Source: Owenia fusiformis (lineage: Eukaryota > Annelida > Polychaeta > Sabellida > Oweniidae). From it: a stretch of DNA of 64,000 bases. Below the pieces are notes generated by a model. The model was not told the DNA's origin. It saw nothing but the letters and a program-made list of their open reading frames with translations, and searched no databases. Shown here piece by piece: positions 10,001-40,000 of this stretch. Position 1 is the stretch's first letter. The number at the start of each line of letters is the position of its first letter. Both the position numbers and the translations under genes were made by a program. Location: contig CAIIXF020000005.1 in the NCBI GenBank assembly GCA_903813345.2, positions 8,003,375 through 8,067,374 of the forward strand. The letters run 5' to 3'.

Positions 10001-13000
10001 TCTGATTTGTTTAATTGAAAAAAAGTTTTTTAAATATTACTTAGGAACGTAACCGGAGCTGGGAACGTAACCGGAGCAGATCAGTTGCAATATTTAATCA
10101 AAAAAAATTAAATTATATGATTTAAAGCACATATACGAGTACTAATTTAAAAACATACGGGATTGTTCGAATGCGTATTTATTAATATATATGCTTTAAA
10201 TCATATATTTTATTTTTTAAATTATATAATTCAACTGATCTGCTCCGGTTACGTTCCTAAGTAATATTTTTAAAACTTTTTTTAAATTAAACAAATCAGA
10301 GTCGTGTGAATCAGAAATAACAGAATTATTCAATAGTATAAGGACTATTCTGTACTTTTTTCAAAAGTCTATACTTAAATGTTGTAAAAAGTTATAATCG
10401 AAAAACCATCTTTCGGAGTAAGTCCGACTGCGCCGATTTCAATAACTTCGTACTTGATCAGAACTGGGTTCCAACAGAATTCCTACAAACTCATGAATGA
10501 AATAGCCATTGCATGGAATACTTACTTTTGTCAAAATCAAAGTAGAACTCTAGTTAAAAAATATATTGTGCTAAATTATTGCCATTTCTTAGTAAAATGT
10601 CGTTCTCCGGTACGTTGCCAAAATTATTCGATGGTACCCCGTGAATATAAAAGAAATAAGAAAAACCAGTGAAAAAATGTTTCAGTGACATTGTCTGTTT
10701 GATTATTTTTGCAATTAAAGAACGTTTTTACATATTTGATCATTACATGGAATGTTACTTGAATTAGTGAAAAGCCTGGGAATTCTTATTTCAAAATGTA
10801 GTTGCAACCCTGAATATAGTTCTCATAACATTTCTGTTTTATATTTGTAATACCACTAAAAAGTGTGTACATTGATATGAAGCCATCTTTTATTTGTGGA
10901 TGACATTCAGAGTTTGGTGATAACTTACCAGGGGGTGACATTTTGAAATGTTAATGTTTTGTTTGTTCTCTTGGAGTAAATATTTTCATTTCTTTACTGG
11001 CTCCCTAACTCAGATATATTTAGCCTAATCATTTTTTACTTGATCCGTTATTAAACAACCTCAGAATATATTGCGTTCAAGCTAACCTCACTGTCTTTAA
11101 TAATATTATAATTAATATGTGAAATAATAAATCTTTCTATGCATTTCCAGATGAATGATTATCCAGAATTCAAGACGCGTAGTTTGCTGTGTTTGCCCAT
11201 ATATAGCAGTGAGCACAAGGTCATCGGTGTTGCTCAAGTCATTAACAAAATCAACAATCAGCCATTCAATAACAATGACATCAACATCTTTGAGGTAAGG
11301 ACTACTTAAGTTTTCTTTGGATCAGCAAAAGTACTCCATAAAAGGGATAAACGTTCCTCCACTGTAAACCTGCCATTTGCAAGAATTTGATTTCCTAAAT
11401 GCTAGCTGTGATGAGTGTTAGGGTTACTGTTAATTAACAATTTTGAAGAAGAAGATGGAAATTGAGGAATACAGTGGAGGAACACATTTTTATTGATCCA
11501 TTTTCACAATGTACAAAAACTAAATGTACTTATAGTGTATAGTTCAACAGCTTTTTTAGTATCCCAACAATCAGTATATAGTAAAAAGGGATATAGAGAA
11601 GCTGTCTGTTCATTTGTCCATTTCTTCTTTTGTTCATTTGGGCTATAAATTAAATACTGGTTGTTGGATTTGGTTCAAATTTGATTTGTATATGAATTTA
11701 TATATAATTACAGAATGAAGTCAGTCCTTAGCGCAGGATTTCATTTTATGTTTTCATTAACCAAATTACATGCTGCTTCAAAATATTAATATCTTCTCAT
11801 AACTATTTTCATGAAACATCAAATTCCCTCAGTACACTATGTTCTCTGTAATGGAACCTGACTTTTTATGATTTTTTATCCCTCCCCCTAAGTAATTAGT
11901 TCTGTGAAATTATGGCACATTTAAAATAAAGTAAATGAGACTGCAATTACTGTGCCAGTGATGCTGAAAGGGAAAGGTGTCTGGATGACACATAGACTAC
12001 TAACATCAGCCCCTAGTGGTTCTGATAACATTTAATGGAGGTGGGAATGGAGTTGTTATGGGAATATGTTGAAAACAAGTTGACCAAAGTATTTTTCGAA
12101 CCTTAATACCATCAGTAATCTGCCTAGTTTGTTTTCTTTACAAGGTGCTAAGTCCTTATTTTGCCTATTCCCCCTCCCCTGAAAGTATCTCGATATTACA
12201 TCATCACGCTGAATGTATGCAAACAGATTTTCGATAGGGTAGCATGTAATTTAAAATTTTTCAATAGGATGCAGCACCTGGTTGATCTAAGGCTGGGAAT
12301 ATCACTGACTATTGTTTAGAGATATTGAAATGTCTGCATAGTTAGCAAAATAATTGTGCATAGAATTATTGGCAAAAGAAATAGGAGTATAGGTTTTAGT
12401 ATATCACCACCAGTAAATTATTGACACTTCAGCTATGGTATCTGATTGATTTGCTATTAAAGTGATTACATCAATGATACCATACTGTATTAGCCATAAA
12501 TGTAAAATGATTACCTATAAGTGGAAATGGGAAAAACGCTGATGGCTGATAATGTAACTTTGTTAGACTAAAAGGAAGTTACCATATACAGTGTGACACC
12601 ATTGTGGCATCCTCAGCCTCTCTCAAGCATTAGAGAAAGGTGGACTCTGCTAAATTAGAATGTGTATCACTGACATCTTGCATTATAATGGAGTCCAATG
12701 CTCTACTGACTAAATAATCATGTCAAAATCAATTATTTATAACATCTCTGATGGAAGAACAATGTATTTATTCAATTATGAGCTATATAGCTTTAAGCTA
12801 ATGCCTGTAATGGACCCCAGGTCTGAGCCCCAACTATGGCTTTTCGTAGAAGTTATATACCCAGCTAGGGAATTTGTAAGAAGTTCTAAAAACAGGCCAA
12901 AGGAACAAGAGGCAAAATTTTGGGAAGTTATTATTATAACATGAAACAATTGCTACACCTTTTACTTGCTCCCAATAATACAAGCTACACCACATGAAAT

Positions 13001-16000: not shown

Positions 16001-19000
16001 ACTACATGGATAAGTATAATATTCTATGGTTTCATGAAGTACATTTTTTAATGTCAAGAATATGACACTTAAATGGTCAACTTGATATCTATTGTTAATT
16101 TTGATCTTCATTGTAGACCATTTATGTTGCAGGCATTTGGGATATTCTGTGGCCTTGGCATATGCAACACACAGATGTATGAGGAAGCAGTGAAACTTAT
16201 GGCCAAGCAGAGTGTCGCACTGGAGGTACTTTCCTATCATGCTACAGCCCAACAGGAGGAAACCATGAAACTGAAGGTAAATAAAATCGTGTTCCATGTA
16301 AACTTTCAGGGTTTGGCTCCATAAATCAACATCTCTCAAGCCTCTCAAAACATGTAATTAATTGCATCGACCACATACCCTTAACCTGCCCCCCCCCCAT
16401 ACCCACCTACAAAACATGTATCAACAAATAACCAAAATATGTAAAATAAAATTGTCATGTTTTTTTTTCGTTTTATTCTCTCCCTTGATGACTGTATGTA
16501 CATATCACAATATTTTACCCTCAATGCTGTCTTAAGTTTTATTGAAAATGCTGTGAAATTCCACAGGAATTCTTTACAATTTTCCCTTTAGGCTGAATTC
16601 ATTAATTTCACTTGCAGAATTCAGCATTTCAACATGCAAAGAACTGGGGGAAGTGATGTATCAAAAACTTTTTGATAAACACAAGATATTAATGCTATCA
16701 TTAAATTGAATGGACTTTGGGTCTTACATGTAGTTTTTTTTTAGTTTCTTTTCACCAACTTTTTCCATAGTTCTCTGACATTGACCTAAATATTGTTATA
16801 ACAGGGTTCGTACACACCTGGAAATGTCAGGGAAATTGATTTATTTTTCCAGGTGCTGGAAATGTCAGGGAATTTCAAAATTGGGTTAAAAAGGGCCAAA
16901 AATGTCAGGGAATTTTGAAACAGTAGATGTGTCAGGGAAATGTCAGGGAATTTTGTATCATTGTTGAAAAAATAATGTTCCAGCAAAATACATTTAAGGC
17001 TATGATAGGATATCAATGAAATCCAAAATCGAACATTTAGTTGTTTCCACAAATTGCTTATCTTTTCATGTGAAAAACTCTTTTCAGTTTAAAATTGTAT
17101 CATATTAATATTCTGTCATATTCTGTCTGTCTGTCTGTTCGACAGTCCGGTAGTATTCAGTCTATTTATCTAACTCAAATATCAGTTGACAGATTTGGTT
17201 AAAGTTTTATATACCAATGCTTTTGTTGCTGTCTCTGCTCAAGAAGATAGTTGCCATTTTTCATATCATGTTCACAATGATAGTATTCGATATATATGTT
17301 TCATTAGGTAGGAATTGGCATTCAAGGGAGTTGCTATTTTTCTTTAGATCAACATTTTTAAGTTTCAGTTTTATTTGGATTCATTACAAAACATCAACAA
17401 ATTATAGTTTGAAATGCTTAGAATGCACCATATACAATTGTCAATTTTGAAAAATTTCCGGGGGTGAACCCCCGTACCCCCCTTTGGGTTTCCTTCACTC
17501 GCAGTGATGCAAACCTCTAAAAATGCACCCCCTTGACACTTGCTGACTATGTCCCTGTACATATATGTTAACCTTCGTAAATACATGTATGTAAAATTAA
17601 GAACATAATGTATCAGGAATAAATTGGTGAATAACGGCCTGTAGAAGTAAAGTTGAGTCATGAGAAATGGTACTAAAGGATAAACCCAAAATGTTTCACA
17701 ATAAGTCTTTTAAATAATACAGTTGTTAGAGACTTTTTAGAGGCCGTGCAAGGAAAACTGGATCTGGAAATTTTATTTTATGCCTGGAAATGTCAGGGAA
17801 ATTCATTTTGAAAAGGTGTACGAACCCTGTATAAGCTACTCATTTAAATGATTCTGACAATAAATTGAAGCCATTAGCACTTACATGTAGGTAAATGTTG
17901 AGTTATAATTTGTTTCTAATAAAAAAGCAATAATAGCTGTGAAATTTGAAGATGTTTTAGTTATTACTTTTAAATTAAATACAGGGATCAGATGAGAATA
18001 AACCTGATACTGAAGGGTAATTTCATTTTCTGCCAAGGAGTATGGTGAAATTAAGACAAATCTATTAGAAAATGTCAGTTGCGGAAGATATCAGGAAGCA
18101 AACGGGTGAACATATTGCCAAGACTGTATGCTTAACTCTTGTCTATTGTCATACTGTAAATGTGGTGATTTTGCCAAAATGAAAATCTACTATTGTGCCC
18201 AAAATTCAAGGCAACAATGATAATTCATGTACCTAATTCATTGACATTGTCTTTTAACACAAGCCTGAAGTACTGTTTTTTATCCTAATCCAGTGTAACC
18301 ATCGTAAATTCAGGTAAAATCACTCCTTGCACAGTATGATCAAGCTAACTGACACTTTTAAATACAATACCCATGGAGTCTACACTTTCAATTTTTATAT
18401 CTCATTTATTTTACATGTTTCTGACAGCTTGAATATTATCAGTTATTCCAGTATATTCAGTTCTTTCATTAAACTCTAAGATCAAAATAAACTGGAAAAC
18501 TCCCAGAGATCCTATCATCTTTATTTCATGTTAGAATATCCTTCCTTGAATAATCTATTGAATGTGAAGGGACTATTAGCAACCCAGAAATCCCCATGGC
18601 TAAAAATTCTTTCAAAATCATGCTATTTCCACTATTCTGTGCATTTCTCAAGTGATTTGGGGTCAAAGTTCGGGTCAAATGTGAGCCCCTTGGGATTTTT
18701 TTGAAAAGTGAAAAAGCTTGGCAAAAGCTGGCTATGGGCCTGATTAGTTAGTAGATTCTAGAAATTTTGGTACAGAGAAAATTGTTGATAATGGCTACCT
18801 TTCAACATTTACATGCACCGATCCATTAGTCTATAACATGGATTTCCAATTTAGATAACATGTTTGTCTGAAGAGATGTACCATTAATAGACTGGTATTC
18901 CCAGAAATCTTCTGTGAGATTCTTCTATAGATTTTACAATTAGTCTGAGTGGGTTGACACAGACACAATTAGATATTGTGTTATTCCTCTATTCAGTGTT

Positions 19001-22000
19001 TCTCTTGTATATTTGTTCTATATGGTAAATCTATCAGTGTGGTGGGAAGTAACATACTTGAAAGCCATTAGATAAATGATATAACAAAGAACTGTATTAG
19101 ATTTAGATGATATTGTATCAAATTACAAAACAATAAATCATCAGATGTACAATACAATAATGATTGTGTTTTTTTATTTTATAAAAATTATAGATAAATG
19201 ATGGGGAGGGGTGCAGACTTACCATGATTGTTGCTCCTATCAGGACTTAATAACTAATGTCAGGGTTGATTGTTAAAAAAAGTCTCAGTTTGGAGAAAAG
19301 TCTAATAATGCGCTAAACATTTTTTATGAAAAATATAGAAATAACACCCAAATTAAATTATGGATATTCAAAAGAGGACATTTAAATCTACAGTATGTAA
19401 AAATACCAAAATTGTCCGAAGCAGGCGTAACATCCAGTAGACTGATTCAATAAAAGGCAATTCTCGATTTGGAGAACGAAGTTCATCATTCTACTGCGTT
19501 AATAATTTTTTTATGAAAAATGTGAAAATAACACCCAAATTAAATTATGGATATTCAAAAGAGGACATTTAATATCTACAAATATTTAAAAATATCAAAA
19601 TTGTCCAAAGCAGGCGTAACGTGCAGTAGACTGATGAACTTCGTCCTCCAAACTGAGACTATTCTTTTAACAAATAAATATGATTGTTAATCTGAAATTG
19701 TATTCAGAAATTGTTTCCACTGCAACCAACTAAATGTTTCCTTGTAACCACTGCAGCCTAAACGTTTCCTTTTAAATTATATTTCAGAAAGCTGTCATTC
19801 CCAAAGCAAGCAAGTACAACCTCTATGGGTTTGACTTCAGTGATTTCCCATTGAGTGATGATGACACAGTGAAAGGAACAATCAGAATGTTTTTGGAGAC
19901 AGATATCATGTCACAGTTTCATGTACCATATGAAGTAAGTCAAAATAGGTAATAGTAAAGAATCGTGAATTTTGGTCTTATTTCCTAACGAAAAATTCTA
20001 AAACTCACAGGAAATGATCGAGATATTGGTTCGAATCTTTTGAACTGTTTATTTTGAATTTATAATCGGTTACAAGGAGGATTGGAAGCCAGGGTTCCAA
20101 CTCGATATTCTTTAATCTCCACGCATGCGTCATTTGCTATTCGTGTCTGTATAATTTGTACGACTGCATGGAGAATGACCCGATACGTTCCAACAAAGCT
20201 ATCGCTAGGTGATTGTTTTGCAGAATATCGGTGTTGCATTCTGGGAGCCAATCCTCCTTGAATCGGTTATAATTTCAGAAAATAACGACATCTCGGCGTT
20301 TTCATTGTTGGAAAATATCGACTTCGATTCTGGGAGCCAATCCTCCTTGTCGTGTCTGTATAATTTGTACGACTGCATGGAGAATGACTCGATACTCTCC
20401 AACAAAGCTATCGCTAGGTGATTGTTTTGCAGAATATCGGTGTTGCATTCTGGGAGCCAATCCTCCTTGGTATTTTAGCCAACGTATTAGAACAGAAAAC
20501 TAGCATACACATAAACAAATCTTGCTGTTTTTTCTATAATAGAGTTTTAATATGATGTATACCAATATGTTAGGTTCCAGAAATGTTTCTTGACAAAAAT
20601 AAAAAAAATTCAAGATGGCCGCCGACCTTACAATTTATGAAATGTCTCATTCTGTGATAATGTCAAATTGATATTAGTGTTTCCGACAAAGTTATCAATA
20701 AATAATACTAAATACATCTGATTATGATCTTTTTCTCACATATAAAATATCTGAAATGAGTAAAAGGTAACCTACATAATAATAATGATGTTCCACAAGG
20801 GTCATTTCTTGGTGCTATATATTTCTTGAATTTATGAATTATCTTCTTTTACTAAGATTTCATCAAGGATTTCCCTCAATAAATCCTCATCAGTTTCTTC
20901 CAATTCCTGTTCAGTTACTGTCTTTTATGTTGGTTATTGCAATCATTCCCCTTGCAAACACAGAACAATGTACATGTTAATGATGCCTTGGAGCATGAAC
21001 ATCGCCCAGTTCTACATACATTGCCCTCTGATATAGGAGGGATTTTAGCTTTTGTGCATTTGTAATGTGTTTTGCAGCATTTTCTTTGCCCATACAGCAT
21101 ATCTCACATCAGACATTTTGTCTGTGACTTTAGGTGTAATTCCATAACATCTAGAAACAAATCCTGTTGAAGTTTTCTCAACTTCAGTCATGTCTGCATT
21201 GACATCTCCCAAGTTAGCGAGTGAGTATCTATTTAACACCTTCAGGACTTTTAGCTTGCCAATTCCATGCATGCAAGATATCGTATCACTGCCAGAGAGA
21301 CCATGCGCAGCTAACAAGTTTGGGATTTTTAATTTGTGTTCATTTACGGTTACATTAATGTTAATGTTTGCTCGGCCAGATGATGTTGCCTCCATTATGA
21401 TGTTATTTTCCATTACTTTGTGCTTGAGACAGTGATGAAGAAGTAGAAGGAACACATCAGTATCATCACTGAGTACACTGATATTCTGTTGGCCTTTACT
21501 GGCAGCATGCAGAACTTGGTGTACGATAACAACATCTGCTTCTTCTTGAGTGTTCCTTAAAGGGAATGCGAAGTTTCATGTTCTAATTTACACGCTGGCT
21601 ACTTATAACCATCATCTATCACTTCAGCTCACTCATGGGACATATCGTGTTTGAACTAACATATAATTCAAGTTCAAAGTACCCATATCTGGATCGCTGC
21701 GGATGCCGCCATTGTTATGTATCAATGACGTCATTGATGCCTTAAAATTGATGCCTGGAAAATGTCGCTATATAATCACGTCATACTCGGATCGCAGAAA
21801 TAGAACACATTTCACTGATATTTTATAACTATTTCTGTCCGCTTAACATTGTTGCCGCATGTTCGAATTCATGTCCATATCATATCATATATTTTGAAAG
21901 GTTGTTTCAATATATTCTTCATAGAAATTGAATTGTTGCAATGTATTTTTTCAAATGTTTGTATTTATTTTCTCCAATGTGATATAGTATAGGCTAGGTA

Positions 22001-25000: not shown

Positions 25001-28000
25001 AATTTAATGGCATACAACCTTTTGTTTTTCTATATCGGAAAATAAATGGAACTTTAAAAGCTTCAGTCACATTTGTTCAATGCGACCACACGTCGATCGT
25101 ATTTCCCTGAAATCAGTAAATTTCTGCGGCAAACATAGGAAAACTACAGTCGACTTAAGGTCACTGCACCTTGCTGTCTACGTACACGACATATCCAGTT
25201 TTTATCAGGCGTAGAGTCGGAGTTATAACTTTTTCTTTATCAAATAAAGAGCAAACATTAACATTAATGTAACCGTAAATGAACACAAATTAAAAATCCC
25301 AAACTTGTTAGCTGCGCATGGTCTCTCTGGCAGTGATACGATATCTTGCATGCATGGAATTGGCAAGCTAACAGTCCTGAAGGTGTTAAATAGATACTCA
25401 CTCGCTAACTTGGGAGATGTCAATGCAGACATGACTGAAGTTGAGAAAACTTCAACAGAATTTGTATTTAGATGTTATGGAATTACACCTAAAGTCACAG
25501 ACAAAATGTCTGATGTGAGATATGCTGTATGGGCAAAGAAAATGCTGCAAAACACATTACAAATGCACCAAAGCTAAAATCCTTCCCACCAACAACAGAA
25601 GCATTTTCCCAGCATGTGAAGCGAGCTCACTTCCAAGTGGCTATATGGAAAAATGCTGATATGCCTGACCCCCCACTTATCCTTCCAACAGATTATGGTT
25701 GGGAAATTAACAGCACGGGCTCACTTGTCCCAACAACAATGCCCAAAGATACACCCTGTACACCTGAAAGAATTCTCCAGCTCATTATTAGTGCACATGT
25801 GCATCAGAGGGCAATGTATGTGGAACTGGGCGATGTTCATGCTCCAAGGCATCTTTATCATGTACATTGTTCTGTGTTTGCAAGGGGAATGAATGCAATA
25901 ACCAACATACAAAGACAGTAACTGAACAGGAATTGGAAGAAACTGAAGAGGATTTATTGAGGGAAATCATTGATCAAATATTAGTAAAAGAAGATAATTG
26001 ATAAATTCAAGATATATATAGCACCAAGAAATGACCCTTGTGGAACATCATTATTATTATGTAGGTTACTTTTTACTCATTTCAGATATTTTATATGTGA
26101 GAAAGAGATTATAATCAGATGTATTTAGTATTATTTATTGATAATTTTGTAGGAAACACTAATATCAATTTAATATTATCACAGAATGAGACATTTCATA
26201 AATTGTAAGGTTGGCGGCCATCTTGAATTTATTTTTTATTTTTGTCAAGAAACATTTCTGGAACCTAACATATTGGTATACATCATATTAAAAGTCTATT
26301 ATAGAAAAAACAGCAATATATGTTAATGTGCATGCTCGTTTTCTGTTCTAATATGCTGGCTAAAATACATAAAACGTGTGAAAATTCAAAATGGCCGCCA
26401 AAAAAATTCCTCAAGGATGCCCGTTGGGCATCCGACAGTTTCTGAATATGGATATCATGTTTAAACAGAAAATGCAAAAAAAGTTCATATAATAAGCATT
26501 TCCACCTCTATTGGCTCTACATCCAGACTATAGTGAATATATGAAAGTTCACTAGGAAAATGAAGGTTTAACATCATGCTGAGAAAAAACTGGGAATATC
26601 ACAGTAATATGTCAGGTCATTTTTCCAGTGAAGAAGATTTATTTGCCACACTGATTGATATAACAAGATCCTTTTGTTGTATAGAAAAGGTTTGTCCAGT
26701 TGACATTAAGTTCAAAATTGTAAGCATAAACTCATGAATGAATTTACTCATTCTTATTGTTAATTGAGGAGTTAAATATTAGTAATATTTCAGGTCTTGT
26801 GTCGTTGGATCCTCAGTGTAAAAAAGAATTACAGGCCTGTCACCTATCATAACTGGCGTCATGCTTTCAATGTAGCACAAACCATGTTCACCATGCTCTA
26901 TGTAAGTAAAACAACAGACAATTTTCACGCTGTTGATCGGGGCCTATTTCTCCAATGTATCATTTGTGAATTCAACTGTTACAAGGATAAGAAGATATGA
27001 GTTTGAATTGTTATTAAATATGACAGCGCAACATGGTGTTGCTAGGAAAGTTAGGAAATGATTTATTGTATTGTAGTTGTGTAATGTTTAAAGTGTAAAG
27101 TCAGTTTGACTTTACTTCCTTGTAGACTATAAAAAAACTTTTCTATTGATTAATAAGAGTCCTCCCTTGAATTTGCTCTTTAAATGGGTTGATAAAAGCT
27201 TACTAAATGAATTGTTGAATATTTCATAAAATGATACTAATTAGTTGTCTAGACATTCAATTGCTGGTCTGAATGTGTAATATGACTGAAAGTATATTGT
27301 TGCAGACAGGGAAGATCAAGAAGGTGTTCACTGAGCTGGAGGTATTTGGACTGCTGGTTGCTTGTCTTTGTCATGATCTCGACCATAGAGGGACCAATAA
27401 TGCCTTTCAGAGCAAGTCAGTAACAATTAAGTCACATAAAGTGCTCTGTCTGAAAGTCAATAGCAAAGTCATTTAAAATTGACCTGTTTCTTAGAAATAC
27501 ATGGTAGAAACAGATTGATTTTTATGTCACTTGGGGACCTGTCAGCTCGATGTCTGTAACAGATAGTGACAGGTGGTGACATTTTGCATGTTAATGCTAA
27601 TGTTAATTGCATGTTAATATTTTTGTACACACTTATGATCTTAATATTATTTTTGGCTCACATGGTGAACTCATCTCCCACTTGTCTATTATGCCTATCT
27701 ATAAACATTGTATGAGGAGACATCCATCCATTGGTTTTTGCCTATAATTACGCTGGTCATGAAATGACTCAATTTATATGATTTGTTCACTCCTGTTTCA
27801 GGTCAGATTCACCACTGGCTATGTTGTACGGGACATCCACTATGGAACACCATCACTTTGACCACTGCATCATGATTCTCAACAGTGAGGTATACACAAA
27901 AGTTGACTTGGTTGAAGTATTCTTTGGAAATGCCTTTCAGACAAATCAAGATATTATTCTCCTATTAGGCCAATATATCTGATAAAATAATCAACTTGGT

Positions 28001-31000
28001 CGTAAAAGACCAGATATGGTTTGGCCAATGATTTTAGACAGTCATTATCTTTGACCATAACTGCATTCTGACCATAAATACAACATTAGTTTATATTGAA
28101 ATGATATATAAAGTGATCAAGTTAATAAAGATATCAATCCATCTGTCCAAAAAATCATTGTTTAAGACCTCATTTTTATGAGGGTCGGATTGATAATTTT
28201 ATTACCCTGGGGACCTATTGCAGGAAGCATATTATTCGATGAGAAATGTTTTATTTATGGTGAGAAAATACTCATGGTCCAAGATATGACTCTAAAATCA
28301 TTTGCCATATCATACCTGGTCCTCCACTCAACCTTATCTTCAAGCCTATTGATCAGCGTTAATGCCAACCTGTAGTGCACATGTCAGTTTGTCTTAGACT
28401 CTTTGTTGTTTCATGTACATTTAGTTTAATTGATTAAAAAATAAACCTAATAATTTGAATAAAATTGTATACTTTCAAGAAGTAAATATTTATATGATCA
28501 ATTGATATTTCAGGGCAACAACATATTCCAACATTTGAATCCAGAGGATTACAGAAAAGTTATTAAGGTGTTAGAAAGTGCAATCTTATCTACTGACCTG
28601 GCTCTGTATTTCAAGTAAGACATTCATTCACTCTCTGTGCAACTCAACTGGTGCTATTGTCGCAGATTTTTAATTTCCAGAGATTTTAAGCTATTAAAAT
28701 GTTGCCATAATAAAAGTAAATTATTTCATTGAAAAATGTGTGCTAAAAGTGTCAATTTCTAAACCCCTGAGAATAGATGAATTTAGATCTGCAGATGGCT
28801 AATTCTGTTCTTGTCAGATGACGTGACAGACATACTAAAAGTTCCTCTCATCTTGGATTAAAAGTAGATCTAGTTGGTCATTTTTCCTTTCCTTTTAGAG
28901 TATGATCAAAATATAATTTAAAATACTTTAGTATAAATAGAATTATTATCTGTTTGATATTATCTGTTCGACAGTGAAACAAAAGTTTTTCACGTAATGA
29001 TTTCTTACATTGGGCTGTGTGGGGAACACACCTGACATAGAAATCAATTGAAAATATGAAAACAAAATTTTTAGGTGTAATTTTGATAAATGTTTTTTTT
29101 TTCAAATATTATACCACATTGAATTTTGATTATTGATCATAAAAATCCAGATTTTTCTACTGATTCTTTGAATCTGTCGTTTGCTACTCACTTTTAAGGT
29201 TAATATAAATTACATTTGGGTCATCAATAGCATTAATGCTTATTGGTTAGCTAGTTTGCATTGAAGAAGCATTGAAAATATTGATCGAGGACAAAGATTT
29301 TACTGCACTCGAACCTTGATTTATATTCCCTTATGACTGCTTTATATTGTTTAAGACGAAACCATATCTAGAGACATCATAGTTTATGGCAATAATGCCT
29401 CTATTTATGGCAATTATGATTATATTGCCAATTACCATTGGTTTTCCGTAAACTACAGCTCAATTTATTGCAATAGGATATCTTAGAATCCAATATCTGG
29501 AGCAACAGATATGAGACCATAAAGGTCAAGGTTCATCACAACTAACCAAGCAATTTGTTACATGCCAAAACATACCAAATACCAAACATACTGCAAACAT
29601 GGATCTAACAAGAATCCATGATACATTTTGATCTAACAAGAATCCATGATACATTTTCAAATCATGGTATTGGAAAATAGAGATGCAATGCAGAAATGTA
29701 TAAACTACAGTATTTACATGTCTGTGCATTAAAAAACGAACATTACATAACATTGAATGTATGAATTTATCTGAAAAGAAATAGAAGCAACATAACTTGG
29801 GATTTTTAGAAAAAAATTATTTTAAATCCAGCTGGGTTGATAAACTTTACTTTTTAACTCTCAAATATTTGTTGGTTGTCTGTATTTCTGCTAAGTTTTA
29901 AGAGATGATTCCAAATGTTTTCTAAGATAGGGGATTCCTTACAAATCTATTAATCACCAACATAGGCTATGAATCAAAAATAAATATTTCAGGAAACGTG
30001 GTGGTTTTGAGAAACTAGTATCATCAGGAGAAAGGAAATGGGAAGATGACAACTCAAAGGAACTTCTCAGGTAAACCCTCATATTTTTTATGATATGATA
30101 TTAACCTTTACCATGCTGCCTTATTTCAGCAAATATATCCCACGCAACTGGCTTATTTTTCAAAGAGTGCAAAAAATGATATGCCTGGACTAAATAATTA
30201 ATATCTCAATAACTACTGAATGAATCTGGATAAAATTTTCACAAAGGGAAGATACAGTGGCCTGGCTCATGAAAAAAAATGTTCTCATGAATTTTTTCGT
30301 ACATTAACACGACTGGGCATAAATATACCATGAATACTCCTCCGGAATCCGCCGCTCCGCCTCTTCGTCTGGTCAGAATCCAAATCTGAATTTGCAGCGA
30401 TCGAATGTTCAATTTTTCAATTCAGAAAATATTCTAGTTTCTATTTTCGATGACCGTTATCGGCTTCCAAGAGCCTAAAGAGCTCGAAATCGTAATCTAT
30501 TTCCTCCACATTTTCGTTGTGAACGTATTTGTCCACCATTTTGTACGATTCGTTCACTAAAAACGACTAAAACACTGTTTAAATTGTTGAATTGAGAATT
30601 ATTTTTCGAAATATCGCCATTCTAGGTCAACAGGAAGTCATGTTAGGCACTGAATAAATCGGGCAATCTAATTGGACAATACGAATGGCGCGAAAAAGTA
30701 AAGTTTTTAAAAGTTTGAAATCGGGCGTACGGGTCCGCCGGCAGTTGTGAGAGACATTTTAGTCTCGGCGGACGCGTCCGCCGGCAGCACGCTAAAGGTT
30801 AAACTGGTATACAGTACAGGTATCAGTCCTTATAGCTTGGTCATGAATGTAGGGCTACTGTGCTAGTGTGCTGATATAATGGAAATGAAAATTACTGATA
30901 TTTAGAATAGAATCACAAATTGATTTACTAAGCGGATTTAATAGCGATTTTGTATCATTTTTTATCATTCATTTACTATTTTTCAGGACTTAAAAAGTGA

Positions 31001-34000
31001 TTTTAGAGATTTTTGAACAAAAACTTTTTTTTTGGTATAAAAAAGTTGTGAGCAATTCATTTCTCAAATATTCAAATTTCCCGCCGTTTTTCAAAAAAAG
31101 TTGAAATTTCTTAATCATCAAATATTTCTTAATGCATTTCAAAAAAGATGATCTTTTTAACACCAATGCAAAGATTGAACAAAGGACACACTATTTCAAT
31201 AATAAAATGCCATATTTAATGGGCCACTTCGATGTTTTAGCATATCAAAAATATTTTGAAACATTAGTGATGTCACTAAGGTAGCAAAAATTTTTTGAAA
31301 AAATTGAATTTTTTTTCGATGTCAATCTTTTCTAAATATGCTAGACTTTCATAAAAAAACAATGTTGATTGTCTAACCAGGTTAAAAGGAAGAATAAATT
31401 ATGTTTTAGATATCATTGTACCATTGGTTTCTATGAGAACTAAAATTTTGAAATGCATTTTTCTCAGAACCATTTTCATGCACTGATAAGTTCATTTCTC
31501 GCTTATTTATGAACCGATTTTCTCAATTTTTTCGGCAAAAAACATGGGAAGATGAATGCTATGCATTGGTATGAATTGTGGCTAATTAGAAGATATGAGT
31601 GACCTCTAAAAGTTGGTTTTAAATAAATTCACAAATTTTGGAACAAAAAGTCTATCAAAAACTACTTTTTGAAATTTAAAAAAAAAGTTTCACATATCAC
31701 ACTTTGATAACATTTGGTAAGACTACTATATAAGCCAAAGTTGTTTAAACTTTATATGGGGCCTTTAAGGTTATCCCTTGGGGACCTGAAATATTATGTA
31801 AGTGGTATATAAATCATATAATACTCATTGCATGTCCTGTTTATTAGTACAGTAAAATCTGTCTTAGTGATACACCTACTCTCTTGGTTGATTTAACATT
31901 AAGTCAGTTGGTCTTGGGACTCTGAAAAGTGTTCCAATTACAGAGGTGTTTCACTTCTAGAAGTGTTCCACTTTACAGGTTTCACTGTATGTATATTTAA
32001 GGGGGATGATGATGACAGCATGTGATGTGTCTGCAATTACAAAACCATGGGAGGTACAACAACAAGTTGCTGAATTAGTCTCAGCAGAATTTTTTGAACA
32101 AGGAGACCTTGAAAAAGAACATTTTGATGCTGGTCCAATAGTGAGTGTGGCGAAACATATTTTTGTATATGTGAAGTATTTTCTCAAATTTGGTTCAATG
32201 ACACAGCTGCACATAATTTAGATAATAAACATTTAATGTTACGATTTAGACTCTCAAAAGAAAGAGTGTCTACAGGGTGTCTTACATGGCATGTAGAATG
32301 AGCATGTCATTTCCTTTTTAATGGGACACCCTGTATAGAATGTTAATAGCTGGAACTAATCATTGAACAAAATTAATGATAGAAAATACTTCTAATACAT
32401 ATTCTAGTTTTATCTTTATTTGATAATGTTTGTTGTTGCCCACTATAGGGGTATGATGATGACAGCTTGTGATGTGTCGGCTATATCTAAACCTTGGGAT
32501 GTACAAAAAGAAGTCGCTCAACTTGTATTCAATGAGTTTTTTGAGCAAGGAGATATAGAGAGAACCAAGTATAACACTGCACCGATTGTAAGTTTGTCAG
32601 ACATTTGGCACGTTTTGGTTGATATTGTGCTACATACAGAAACCTCCTCTTCACTCTGCTCATCATTATCTATCACTGCATGCATATATTTCTGACTGTA
32701 TGGTATAGTACTTCTGTCCATGTTTCTCTGCTCTGCATTTGGTTATGAATGCATCTTTGTGCATTTGCTTTATTCAGCATTTCAGCATTGGTTTATAAGT
32801 ACATGAGTATGGGATCTCGATAACCTAATGGTTAGTGAGTACACCTTGTGTATATGCTATCCTTAGCGTTGGTGTATTTTGTGCAAGTGCTCTACACCAC
32901 ATCCATTTACCTTTGTGCATGTGCTCTCCTCAGCATTGGTTTTTGAGTAATACTTTGTGTATGTGATTTACTTAGCAATAGTATTGGTTTCTGAGTGCAC
33001 CCTTATGTGCATGTGCTCTCCTCAGCATTGGTTTTTGAGTACTACTTTGTGTATGTGCTCTACTCAGCATTGGTCTATGTACAACTTTGTGTATGTGTTC
33101 TACTCAGCATTGGTCTCTAACTACAACTTTGTGTATGTGCTCTACTCAGCATTGGACTCTGACTACAACTTTGTGTATGTGCTCTACTCAGTATTGGTCT
33201 CTGACTACAACTTTGTGTATGTGCTCTACTCAGCATTGGTCTCTGACTACAACTTTGTGAATGTGCTCTACTCAGCATTGGTCTCTGACTACAACTTTGT
33301 GTATGTGCTCTACTCAGCATTGGTCTCTGACTACAACTTTGTGTATGTGCTCTACTCAGTATTGGTTTCTAAGTTCAACTTGTGTATGTGCTCTACTCAA
33401 CATTGGTCTCTAACTACAACTTTGTGTATGTGCTCTACTCAGCATTGGTCTCTAACTACAACTTTGTGTATGTGCTCTACTCAGCATTGGTCTCTGACTA
33501 CAACTTTGTGTATGTGCTCTACTCAGCATTGGTCTCTGACTTCAACTTTGTGTATGTGCTCTACTCAGCATTGGACTCTGACTACAACTTTGTGTATGTG
33601 CTCTACTCAGTATTGGTCTCTGACTACAACTTTGTGTATGTGCTCTACTCAGCATTGGTCTCTGACTACAACTTTGTGAATGTGCTCTACTCAGCATTGG
33701 TCTCTGACTACAACTTTGTGTATGTGCTCTACTCAGCATTGGTCTCTAACTACAACTTTGTGTATGTGCTCTACTCAGCATTGGACTCTGACTACAACTT
33801 TGTGTATGTGCTCTACTCAGCATTGGTCTCTAACTACAACTTTGTGTATGTGCTCTACTCAGCATTGGTCTCTAACTACAACTTTGTGTATGTGCTCTAC
33901 TCAGCATTGGACTCTGACTACAACTTTGTGTATGTGCTCTACTCAGTATTGGTCTCTGACTACAACTTTGTGTATGTGCTCTACTCAGCATTGGTCTCTA

Positions 34001-37000
34001 ACTACAACTTTGTGTATGTGCTCTACTCAGCATTGGTCTCTAACTACAACTTTGTGTATGTGCTCTACTCAGCATTGGTCTCTGACTACAACTTTGTGTA
34101 TGTGCTCTACTCAGTATTGGTTTCTAAGTTCAACTTTGTGTATGTGCTCTACTCAACATTGGTCCCTGACTACAACTTTGTGTATGTGCTCTACTCAGCA
34201 TTGGTCTCTGACTACAACTTTGTGTATGTGCTCTACTCAGTATTGGTTTCTAAGCTCAACTTTGTGCATGTGCTCTACTCAACATTGGTCTCTAACTACA
34301 ACTTTGTGTATGTGCTCTACTCAGCATTGGTCTCTAACTACAACTTTGTGTATGTGCTCTACTCAGCATTGGACTCTGACTACAACTTTGTGTTTGTGCT
34401 CTACTCAGTATTGGTTTCTAAGTTCAACTTTGTGTATGTGCTCTACTCAGCATTGGTCTATGTACAACTTTGTGTATGTGTTCTACTCAGCATTGGTCCC
34501 TGACTACAACTTTGTGTATGTGCTCTACTCAGTATTGGTTTCTAAGTTCAACTTTGTGTATGTGCTCTACCCATCATTGGTCTATGTACAACTTTGTGTA
34601 TGTGTTCTACTCAGCATTGGTCCCTGACTACAACTTTGTGTATGTGCTCTACTCAGTATTGGTCTCTGACTACAACTTTGTGTATGTGCTCTTCTCAGTA
34701 TTGGTTTCTAAGTTCTACTTCGTGTATGTGCTCTACTCAGCATTGGACTCTGACTACAACTTTGTGTATGTGCTCTACTCAGTATTGGTTTCTGAGTTCA
34801 ACTTTGTGTATGTGCTCTTCTCAGTATTGGTTTCTAAGTTCAACTTTGTGTATGTGCTCTACTCAACATTGGTCTCTAACTACAATTTTGTGTGCTCTCT
34901 AATCAACGTTGGTTTATGAGATTTGTTTATTTTTGTAAGTGCTTTACTAAGCATTGATTTATGAGTACATCTTTTTGCATATGCTTTATTTTAATTGGTT
35001 TATACAGATATATTTTTATGAATGTGATTCATTTGGCATTGGTTTATGAGTAAACCTTTCTGAATGTGCTCTATTTAGGATTGTATTTCCGACTATATAT
35101 ATGCATTATGCTCTACTCAACCTTGGGTTTTGATTTGATTTTTTGTATGTGCTCTAGCATTAGATTAGCATTAGTGTTTTTTGTGCATGTGGCTTTGGCC
35201 ATAAGAAGTAGATACTCTGTTTTATTTCCTAACAAAATCCAAATCATGTAAGGGTACCAGGAAAACAGACACAAACTAAAAAATCAAGCTTTTTGCCATG
35301 AAATGTAGAGGATTATTGTGCATTGTTGATTTATGAATGTATGCATTTATTCAGGACTTGAGTTAACTATTTAATTGGTCAAGTCATGTTTACACTTTCT
35401 TATTTTAATAATTCCATTCTTCATTTTTATCACACCACCGTTGGGATATAATTGTTATGTTTGCAGTGTTATTGTGATCTTGGGGACTTGATTATTTTTT
35501 GTGATTGTGATCCAGTTCGCAAATTATTGAATTATATGAATATTTTCTTGTTCTGCTTAAACTTGATTACAAATATGTGTAAATTTCTATCTTAAATTTT
35601 AAGGCAATGATGGACAGAGACAAGAAGGATGAACTGCCAAAGATGCAAGTAGGATTCATAGATGGAATATGCATGCCTGTATATAAGGTAGGGGCTTAAT
35701 ATAAGATAAAGTTGAATAATTCACAACCTCTCAATATTTTGATGAAATAAACTTAAATATGAACTTTTGTAATAGATTTTAGAATTTAGATTTTGGAATA
35801 GACATGAACATAAAGAAGTAATTAATTTCATTGAGAGTTTTATGTATACTTTTCTGAATTAGGTATGCTATAAAATAATAAAATGCTTTTTGCTGCACAT
35901 TATAATTCAATAGAATTTCTTGTATTTTGAATACCTTTCATAGTAACCATATTTATTACTCTATTTATACTTTTTATTTCTCTTCAATTTTAAAGTTATT
36001 AACTTTTGTTATAAAATTCTTTCATAACTTTACTAACATGTCAAACCAGGCATTCAATTAAACTCTTATATAATCCTTGCAATTTCAAAACCATGCATTT
36101 CCTTGTATTATATTGCACTATATATACTGTATCTTCTTCTCTTTGTTTAAACAAGGAATTACATATGCTTATTTGTTTGAAATTGTTGCTTTATTCTGTT
36201 GCAAATGATTGTTTCCAATATAAAGTGTCCTGATTTAAGGAGAAGTTAGAATTTGAAAAGTATAAGAATGACTAGAACTGAAAATTTATATATACTCTCC
36301 TTAAATCATGCAATTTATGTATTTGGCATGTTTGATTAGCTGCTGAGTGAAAAGTTTGAAGAGGTTGCACCTATGTTGCATGGGTGTGAAAGAAATCGCG
36401 ATAAATGGACAGAGCTAATGCCTGATCGCAGAGATGAGCCAAAAAAGCAAAATGGTCAGACATTAACCAAGGGTAAATTTTCTATGTATGTGGGTGTCGT
36501 GCTTCTTGTCTGCTCTGCAATAAGTGTATGTCTTCTTATAAGTTATATACTGGAAAACATGTTAACTTCGCTGATGATCTAAAGTCATATAACTTTAGGA
36601 ATGAATTCAATTGACAAAGTTCTGAAATAGTGAATGTAATATGAAATATGATTTCAAGACAATTCTCAATCAGTATGAAAATTGCATGAGTGAATTTAAA
36701 AAGTTTCACAGTATTTTAGATAATTTTATATAAGACTTGACTCAAGTCGTTTGGTTTAGAGAACTGTAAGACATTATTGGGAGCTTTGTGCTTAACAGTA
36801 TTCTACATTCATTTTTAAATCCACTATAATATGTGTGTATTACAGTGCTCTAAAAATTTGAGGCAAGATTGTTAAAGATAAGAATGATTTCACTGTTTTC
36901 TGAAGTACTTACTACCATTATATGGCATCTTTTTTTTCAAATGGCTTTCTTTATTTGCCATTTTTATCCGAGTGGTAATACCTATTCCTCATATTTTGAA

Positions 37001-40000
37001 ATATTTAGATTGCTCAAATATCTTCTGTTCAATATAATAAAATACAGCATTGAAAATATTAATACATCTACTAATTTTTGATAACTCTTTCATTATCTGA
37101 TATGTTTGCTTTGGTTTCAAAATTATTTTTGTATTTTCATTGAATACACTCTCACTGGAGATCAACTAGAAATGAAGACATCATCTCTCCATTTCAACAA
37201 CATTATCGAACTTCCAGAATTATAGATTCCAGTTGATCCCCAATGACGATGAGATTGATTTAGACTTAAACAAAATCTGTACTATGCATTAATTTCTGTA
37301 TTTTTAACAACGTACAGGGTGAGTGAAAAGAATGTTAACCACTTTTATACTGATACAAAGATTCCATGTTTATCAAAACATTGAAGTTTATCTTGATGGC
37401 AAGAAACAAAAATACAGTAAATAAACTGACAATTCCTGATTTTCAATAAATATAGGAGGAACAATAGCAATTTTTAGAGGGTAATTTTTTCACTCACCCT
37501 GTTATATATTTTATTTCACATTAAGAACTTCTTTTGTATAAAGTAAACTTTCAAATGTAAAAACAATTTCTCCTTGCATGGCTTGTTAGATCTATGATCA
37601 TGTGACCAGTAACAAGGTATAATTCAGATAGATGTAAATTGTAATCAAATATTATTAACCAATACTCCAAAATGTGAAGGTCTACTAAATGATTGTATAA
37701 TCTAATTCAGTTAGAATGGCATTAGTTAAATCATAGATTTATCAAACCATATATATTTGGGAAATTTTGGTTGCATTATTATTATAAGCTTGTTTTGCTC
37801 ACTCAGCACTCTAATCTAAGGTGGAGGAATTTTAACACTATTTTCAGGCATAATATTTAAATATCGGAAATTAATACTTTTACATTTCCCTTATTTTTAA
37901 TATGGTGCGCTGTTTTGTATTTATGCTTTAAAATTCTTTATTATCCCAATGAACAAAAGTTCAATAGGGATATATTGAAGCTCTCTGTCCATCCGTGTGT
38001 CAGTCTATGGATATTCATATCTTATTGTGATCAATTTACATGTACATTGTATTGCATACATATTGTTCATTTGGATTTGCTACTCTGTGGAGTTGCCATT
38101 TTCTAGTCTGAATATCTGCTCATTTACTTAAGAGTATTATTCTTATTAAAGTTAATTGTCTGATGTCTTATGTTTGTGTATTCCTTCTTTCTTATCTAGA
38201 CGTTTGCTCAAATGGAAAAGAATCTATCACCATTATTACATGGGTGTGAAAACAATCGGCAACAGTGGCAGAACCTAGCTGATAAAGTCACTGAAAGTAG
38301 GATACGAGAGCATGCTGCATGATAAACCCACCATTAACCATGTTATAATAGCGCTTAAATAACATTTTACTCGTTCTAGTTATTTTAACATTGTTATAGC
38401 GTCTTAGATTAAGCTTTATATCCATGGTATTACCTCCTAGTATAGATATTAGGTAATAGATCTACAACCTATTGTTACAGTCTTGTTATAATTACTGTAT
38501 AAGCTGTAGTTCCCTCAAAAATCCTGCCAAGTGTGATTTTTTTTATTTCATTATAGCTGACTCTCAGTTTTGATGTCACCACTCAAAATATGTTGATTTG
38601 CTATGAATCATTCGTTTTGTTTGTCTGTATTCAGTGTCTACTTCATGTAAAATTATTGTAATATTGCAAAATTTGTAATGGTCAGAGTCTCCGATTTATT
38701 TTGTTGAATCACAGGTATGCTAGTGTATACCAGGTTGTAAAACTTTGATGCTCAATTGTTTTGGTTGGTAAAGGATACATTTCTCTCAGGATAAACCCCA
38801 TATTTTAAATCTCTTATTACCTGCCTTCGTATAGTTTCCTTTAATTTTAAAAATTCAAAATTGTTTCTTATCTACAATATTTCTCATAGAATAGATACAG
38901 CATTTAAATAACCATGTAAATTTATATACTCAGAACTAAAATTGCTATAGCTTAATTAACCCTCTAGATTAAATTGCAAATTTAATCTTGTAAATATAGC
39001 TGAATCTCATATATATACTGGTATATAGCTAAATCTTTTAGTTACTTGAATAATCTCTGAGATATAACATTTTTATTAGACACAGCTGAAAGTTATGTTT
39101 CTATTTCACTACTTATCAAACACGGTTGGTACTCTAAGCTTCTCAAGGTTGCCATCCTCAAGACATCAATCTCAGTCCTAACTTCTGCTTTTTCAAATGG
39201 TTTGACAAGTGGTAGTTGCCCTTATAGATACTGCATTTTTATTTATCCATCTGTCCTGTCTGTTCATAACATATTCTAATAAGGTGGTACTGTCCCCATT
39301 AATGGAGCAGTTGTCTCAGCATATACATGGTGATAGTGATTGGTGGAAGCAGTTTTCAGAGGTACTATAGAAAGAAATATTCTTAAAAGTTAAATTCTCT
39401 AGTATGAATCTTTTTAATGATATAACTGAATCCCGTAGGTACATGTATAGTTGAATTAAGAAATATAGACCAAAGAGCAGGGTTACTAGTTTCGAATAAC
39501 ACCCCGCTGGTCTCGGCACAAACGTTTTCTGTACCCCAAACGACCGAAGGGAGTGAACATGAAAACTCACCAAATTGTTTCGAATATTCATCATGGTCCG
39601 CCATTACTACGACCCACCATTATGACGTCACACATTACACGTATTAACTTGGTTATTGATCTCGAATATAACCCAGCTGAAGCATTGACTTTGTTTACAG
39701 TTTATAGAAGGCGTGAATACAGTCATGTTCGAATATACAATAAAGAACTGAATCATGTAGATAAAAGTATAGCTGAATATGTATACAACTGATTTGCTAA
39801 TTATAAGACATAACTATTATACCAATGAGAGTCAGCTATGTTTTATTTATTTGCAATTAGCACCTGCATTACTTATGCAGTTAATAGCTAAATATAGGCA
39901 AGGCAATGGCAGTAAATAAAATGTTAAGCATATCCTCCCACTAGCGTATTTCACCTACTTTAACACACATGTGTCCTTCATGTACAATGTGCATATCTAG

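Follow-up and report, generated by a model that had tools for sequence, protein, structure and literature searches.

The window, the whole stretch of 64,000 nucleotides of Owenia fusiformis DNA analyzed here, contains a phosphodiesterase (PDE) gene in which two similar exons, A and B, lie one behind the other in the part that encodes the catalytic site. Are both copies used, one at a time, to build two versions of the same enzyme, or does only one of them encode functional protein? The first-pass annotation of the window had proposed a mutually exclusive pair that exchanges part of the catalytic site. Based on the equal length and phase of the two exons, the logic of the reading frame, and purifying selection on both copies, this is still the best reading. 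Very probably, A and B arose by an ancient tandem duplication and are mutually exclusive in coding for a PDE5/6-type phosphodiesterase, of which two differing proteins are made.

The window gene is a PDE5/6-type phosphodiesterase by sequence

The features of the gene, and those of related loci discussed below, are collected in Table 1. The class I PDE catalytic motifs are present, and their best match is to PDE5/6. Isoform A shares 147 of the 265 residues of its catalytic part with human PDE5A, and isoform B shares 146. The top solved relatives are PDE5/6 chimeras (347 bits for A and 344 for B), and PDE5A is next (e.g., 1udt, 341 and 337 bits); PDE6C scores 323 bits with A and 325 with B, and PDE10A scores 262. 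No PDB chain of PDE11 is among the matches listed, and this family lies outside the comparison. A gene at C1:49.23 Mb is, as we assume from its motifs, PDE11-like.

Table 1. Coordinates of the features discussed in the text (positions without a prefix are those of the window; x, number of repeat copies)
Feature	Position	Strand	Remarks
GAF-type exon	11169..11294	+	match to PDE5A sequence, E ~4e-5; edges approximate
GAF-B end and linker	16127..16276	+	68% identity over 50 residues to human PDE5A; edges approximate
Linker ahead of catalytic domain	19791..19937	+	match to PDE5A; edges approximate
Catalytic exon a	26794..26901	+	
Catalytic exon b	27306..27415	+	HDLDHRG metal site
Catalytic exon c	27802..27889	+	
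Catalytic exon d	28514..28614	+	contains LALYFK
Catalytic exon e	29993..30070	+	upstream partner of A or B
Exon A	32002..32140	+	TACD with the metal Asp; PDE5A position 783 is Ser; LEKEHFDAG is first part of M-loop
A-B intron	32141..32448	+	308 nt; strong hairpin at ~32271-32335
Exon B	32449..32587	+	homologous to A and in tandem with it; PDE5A position 783 is Phe; IERTKYNTA is M-loop start
Catalytic exon f	35604..35687	+	joined downstream to A or B; encodes the purine-binding Gln
Last exon g	36340..36582	+	frame enters hydrophobic stretch ahead of stop
Alternative last exon h	38200..38322	+	same phase as g; stop; without hydrophobic tail
PDE10-like gene	C1:15891560-15900341 (15.891-15.900 Mb)	-	three exon clusters; best PDB match PDE10A, 228 bits
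PDE9-like gene	C10:29642118-29642627 (29.64 Mb)		114/114 nt pair
PDE9-like gene	C10:26.879 Mb (26.88)		114/114 nt pair, same as at C10 29.64 Mb
PDE9-like gene	C1:14.3156 and 14.3112 Mb (14.31 Mb)		metal-Asp exon pair, 105/105 nt
Exon-edge minisatellite	L013 9270-9784		87 bp x5.9
Exon-edge minisatellite	L018 8128-8435		103 bp x3
Exon-edge minisatellite	L021 743-2198		112 bp x13
Exon-edge minisatellite	L025 1388-2805		79 bp x17.7

Upstream of the catalytic exons, a PDE5A query gave matches at 11169, 16127, and 19791, whose succession is the one to be expected of GAF and linker segments. The Pfam GAF model gave no match at this locus. By sequence, we class the gene as PDE5/6-type and do not file it as PDE6. 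The ends of both last exons that we found, g and h, are without a C-terminal CaaX prenylation box, and a genome search for the PDE6 gamma subunit (PF04868), which may miss short exons, gave no match over the cut-off and one at an E value of 6.7. An invertebrate PDE6 gamma is likewise absent according to the part of PMC4906994 that was available. A role for PDE6 gamma as the partner that reads the M-loop choice is not supported, as PF04868 had no match over the cut-off in this search, in which short exons may escape notice.

The final catalytic motif is encoded in both last exons, as GCERNRDKW in g and as GCENNRQQW in h. The hydrophobic stretch of exon g has a 19-residue Kyte-Doolittle mean of 2.76, and choice of g may give a membrane-bound enzyme and choice of h a soluble one; exon g could instead be spliced further.

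Exons A and B fit the same place in the reading frame

A and B are tandem exons of 139 nt each with identical phases. One nucleotide completes the codon that is split after exon e, and the 3' end is a codon boundary. Both exons are flanked by AG and GT (A, ttaag|..|gtgagt; B, tatag|..|gtaagt). Of their 46 residues 31 are identical, as are 97 of 138 bases, with 11, 6, and 24 base differences at codon positions 1, 2, and 3, and both have TACD and FFEQGD. The coordinates, lengths, phases, residue identity, and conserved motifs agree with the first-pass annotation. When exon A is used as the query against the 498-Mb genome, B is the best of 15 scored matches after A itself (E value of 4.8e-16), and the sequence comparison excludes a chance likeness of the two. 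With either exon as the query, A and B are the sole full-length matches at the window gene, and these genome searches found no third exon of this type there.

When exons a to e are joined through A or through B to f and g, the open reading frame has 316 residues in either case. Joint inclusion of A and B and joint skipping of the two both cause a frameshift and an early stop, as 139 is not divisible by three. Each intact mRNA would then pass from exon e through A or B to exon f, and mRNAs with both copies or with neither would meet an early stop and be degraded.

As a point against the pair, the 3' splice site of exon A appears weak by eye, and a further AG lies 23 nt upstream, the use of which would break the frame. 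Regulated exons often have a weak splice site. The intron between B and f contains a 42-bp minisatellite of 45 copies (33006..34893, plus strand).

Frame and mRNA decay would suffice for exclusive use

Judged from the sequence, the frame rule and decay of wrongly spliced mRNAs are sufficient for exclusivity. Steric exclusion is unlikely, with an A-B intron of 308 nt and an AG-free zone of only 39 nt ahead of exon B. With so short a zone, the branch point should lie roughly 270 to 300 nt away from A's 5' splice site, which is not near.

It is also conceivable that RNA structure enforces the choice, either through the hairpin in the A-B intron or through pairing between introns. The hairpin at ~32271-32335 beats all 200 shuffled sequences (z of -4.0), and it has one match in the genome by a search that skips very common words, which does not support an origin from a recent transposon. 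In addition, an 18-bp pairing, with G-U pairs allowed, can form between the A-B and B-f introns; this came from a search without a shuffled control. Such a mechanism would be compatible with mutually exclusive coding exons, but frame and decay are already enough, and we regard a structural device as rather unlikely.

Differences between A and B are denser in the M-loop

In PDE5A numbering, the two isoforms differ at positions 769, 773, 776, 777, 780, 783, 784, 792, and 794 to 800. The metal-binding Asp764 and residues Gln775, Phe786, Gln817, and Phe820 are the same in both. The first-pass annotation had placed the nine residues at the end of the exon on PDE5A 792 to 800 and had them all change. 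The gap-free alignment bears out the placement, but 8 of the 9 differ, as E793 is common to both exons. It had also described the Ser/Phe difference at A783 as the one further change; the position is correct, but there are six more besides 783 and 792 to 800.

Position 783 is taken up by Ala in PDE5A, by Ser in isoform A, and by Phe in isoform B; in PDE5A this residue presumably forms part of the wall of the H pocket. Human PDE5A, PDE6C, PDE2A, and PDE10A have the same catalytic motifs as the window gene, and PDE2A and PDE10A have a Tyr at 783 that is bulky like the Phe of B. The differences between A and B are denser in the M-loop, where they affect 8 of 13 exon residues, than elsewhere in the exon, where they affect 7 of 33 (Fisher p of 0.012). 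According to the available part of a 2025 review, the M-loop comprises PDE5A residues 790 to 810, lies near the active-site entrance, and may shift on inhibitor binding (PMC13095499), and excerpts of PMC9501832 place it close to the H pocket. The location of the exon's end segment inside the M-loop, as proposed earlier, is thus correct, and the loop is close to this pocket. The same part of the review describes PDE10 as a dual-substrate enzyme and PDE2 as hydrolyzing cAMP and cGMP (PMC13095499). Given the changes in the M-loop and at 783 together with the substrate range of PDE2 and PDE10, it is plausible that the A/B choice alters substrate or inhibitor behavior. The metal site and the purine-binding Gln would be common to the two proteins, but their M-loop starts would be distinct, and residue 783 would be small in one and bulky in the other. 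The likeliest effect would be on substrate affinity or turnover and on inhibitor binding, rather than a loss of activity.

A second reading is that A and B diverged by neutral drift in a variable loop and that the isoforms are redundant in catalysis, with only the regulation of splicing being of consequence. Exclusive splicing is compatible with this. The 792 to 800 segment also differs between PDE5A and the paralogue of the window gene on C9, so divergence of A and B there need not mean new function, and the dense M-loop differences may reflect weak constraint. Ser versus Phe at 783 argues against drift, as does the fact that both sequences have been kept long enough for synonymous sites to saturate, and we consider redundancy of the isoforms improbable.

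Both copies are old and under purifying selection

Comparison of dN and dS between A and B, which had been suggested as a check on the pair, was made within this one genome and indicates purifying selection on both copies. By the Nei-Gojobori method there are 20.5 synonymous changes in 27.5 sites, a saturated dS of 3.83, and 20.5 replacement changes in 110.5 sites, a dN of 0.21. With saturated dS and low dN, neither copy looks decayed. If half of this dS is assigned to one neutral branch (an expected difference of ~0.69 per site), the probability of 21 or fewer replacement changes on it is ~5e-27. In the C9 paralogue, the one homologous exon matches A at 32 of 46 residues and B at 31 of 46 (pN of 0.196 and 0.197), and this equal distance indicates that neither copy is relaxed. 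By these measures the duplication is old and, at this exon, about as old as the split from the C9 paralogue. Neither exon-query searches nor inspection of 10 kb of C9 intron found a second full exon copy in that paralogue.

These values bear on two other explanations. In the first, one copy makes functional enzyme and the other is a regulatory poison exon that lowers enzyme levels by nonsense-mediated decay, either through joint inclusion with its partner or by competing for splicing. The early stops in the A+B and skipped products fit this idea. However, both copies keep the protein motifs and combine saturated synonymous divergence with few replacement changes, and a reading frame of enzyme quality is not needed for such a role. 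We therefore consider a poison exon quite improbable. Recent inactivation of one copy, with its decay yet to come, is more improbable still, as stops and loss of splice sites are absent from both copies and replacement divergence is 0.21 at saturated synonymous divergence.

Tandem catalytic exons in other PDE genes of the genome

A genome search with PF00233 gave at least 96 matches, which were grouped into 14 loci. Besides the window gene, four other PDE loci have tandem catalytic exons of the same phase (Table 1). In the PDE10-like gene these form a pair of exons of 156 and 156 nt (HD pair), a set of three of 112 nt each with the motifs TASD, TACD, and TAAD (D set), and a pair of 81 and 81 nt (G pair). 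AG/GT flanks and matching phases are found throughout the three clusters, and synonymous sites are saturated in every comparison. The dN values are 0.23 for the HD pair, 0.16 to 0.54 for the D set, and 0.30 for the G pair. The second G copy has a Glu just before VGF, a position occupied by Gln in the first copy and in PDE5A (Gln817); in the available part of PMC13095499 this purine-binding Gln is called invariant.

The other three loci are PDE9-like, and the PDE9A label comes from a query that joined exons of two PDE9-like genes. When the two C10 genes are compared, dS is 0.17 for copy 1 and 0.04 for copy 2, which indicates that the exon pair is older than the gene duplication. Because lengths of 156, 81, 114, and 105 nt are divisible by three, the frame alone does not forbid joint use or skipping of these exons.

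The metal-Asp exon is present in more than one copy in three PDE families. Exon edges differ among the PDE5/6-type, PDE10-like, and PDE9-like genes, and on this ground the duplications look independent across families. We tentatively suggest, at somewhat below even confidence, that a combinatorial choice of active-site exons diversifies PDEs at five or more loci and that some of the choices shift substrate preference. This would comprise 2 forms for the window gene (with 2 last exons in addition), 2 x 3 x 2 = 12 for the PDE10-like gene, and the three PDE9-like loci, with the metal-Asp exon independently multiplied in three families and one isoform in which Gln is replaced by Glu.

Three of the PDE genes, and a PI-kinase gene as well, contain minisatellites in which the repeat unit is made up of the 3' end of an intron and the start of a coding exon and the array ends in the real exon (Table 1). 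Such arrays raise the number of 3' splice sites and may offer this genome a path to duplicated exons. A PDE-specific origin for them was rejected since one sits in the PI-kinase gene.

Are PDE genes special in this genome?

For comparison, we took a census of three control families, PTP, PI-kinase, and G-alpha, which were picked after the PDE result was known. The numbers of matches are minimum values, and the control loci counted are those with at least three of them. A locus was flagged if two matches fell on the same part of the profile; for PDE and PTP these had to be neighbors no more than 5 kb apart, whereas for PI-kinase and G-alpha any two matches up to 10 kb apart were considered. By this measure 6 of 14 PDE loci were flagged, compared with 8 of 37 control loci (PTP, 3/21; PI-kinase, 2/8; G-alpha, 3/8), a raw p of 0.12. 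Three more flagged PTP loci, each with two matches in one long open frame, were taken as two-domain genes and set aside unread.

When the sequences were read, the flagged PDE loci at C1:26.2 Mb and C10:34.2 Mb turned out to be a minisatellite and consecutive exons, respectively, and five of the flagged control loci were likewise consecutive exons or a minisatellite. The unflagged PDE locus at C10:26.88 Mb was added on the basis of tblastn and reading, an extra search that the controls did not receive. This leaves 5 of 14 PDE loci, or 4 of 13 with the C10 genes taken as one, and 3 of 37 controls (PTP, 1/21; PI-kinase, 0/8; G-alpha, 2/8). Compared with the 3/37 controls, p is 0.028 for 5/14, 0.065 for 4/13, and 0.080 for 4/14. 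Enrichment of tandem exons among PDE genes is thus no more than suggestive, in a post hoc test in which PDE loci were scrutinized more closely and the lists are incomplete, and duplicated exons may be frequent throughout this genome.

The control loci that were retained are of several kinds. A PTP gene (C11:10900.4-10901.5 kb, minus strand) has a tandem pair of WPD-loop exons of 158 and 152 nt in the same phase. At one G-alpha locus, two exon copies 6 kb apart (C6:39186499 and 39192596) are nearly identical, which indicates a recent duplication. On the minus strand of C5, at 26.8674 and 26.8729 Mb, a G-alpha gene has two first coding exons, MGCGPSSEDQAAYQ... and MGCAVSSEDKVAQE..., that are homologous and lie 5.4 kb apart.

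Discussion

The nearest functional precedent, by analogy, is coq-2. In the available part of PMC7434440, two tandem homologous internal exons likewise exchange part of an enzyme core, and the exclusive exons are reported from nematodes, other helminths, annelids, and molluscs. The enzyme is a different one, and the substrate switch was shown in Caenorhabditis elegans, whereas here a functional change is inferred from sequence. More broadly, substitutions of tandem duplicated exons number 236 events in 214 human genes and 154 in the fly (PMC9741552, in part). These are also tandem homologous exons, mostly ancient, with key residues kept. Neither phosphodiesterase nor PDE is mentioned in the main text of that paper, and the present case differs from that set in that several genes of one enzyme family are affected. 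In the oyster alternative oxidase (PMC5589949, in part), a duplicated exon is used alternatively in another marine invertebrate enzyme. The PDE5/6 chimera (PDB 3jab, 3jwq, and 3jwr) is similar in that its PDE6-like stretch begins in the M-loop region in which A and B differ, but it is engineered, and the segment replaced is longer.

The PDE splice variants described in the covered part of the 2025 review have altered N termini or missing parts, e.g., PDE7A3, which is without part of the catalytic domain, and the term "mutually exclusive" is absent from that part (PMC13095499). Among the titles and starts of abstracts that searches of open-license PMC papers returned, none described mutually exclusive exons for the catalytic domain of a PDE. 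As far as these partial sources go, the mechanism is already known and what is apparently new is its probable use in PDE catalytic domains.

The selectivity of PDEs is a much studied drug problem, and their variety is normally ascribed to separate genes. If the reading given here is true, splicing exchanges the M-loop, residue 783, and even the purine-binding Gln, which would amount to a natural mutagenesis series on a fixed scaffold. Such a series would give a direct view of the residues that set affinity, the choice between cAMP and cGMP, and inhibitor binding. The recurrence of tandem exons across PDE genes and the exon in which Gln is replaced by Glu add to the interest of the system. A signaling enzyme family would then join coq-2 and the alternative oxidase as a case in which splicing of duplicated exons alters the core of an enzyme.
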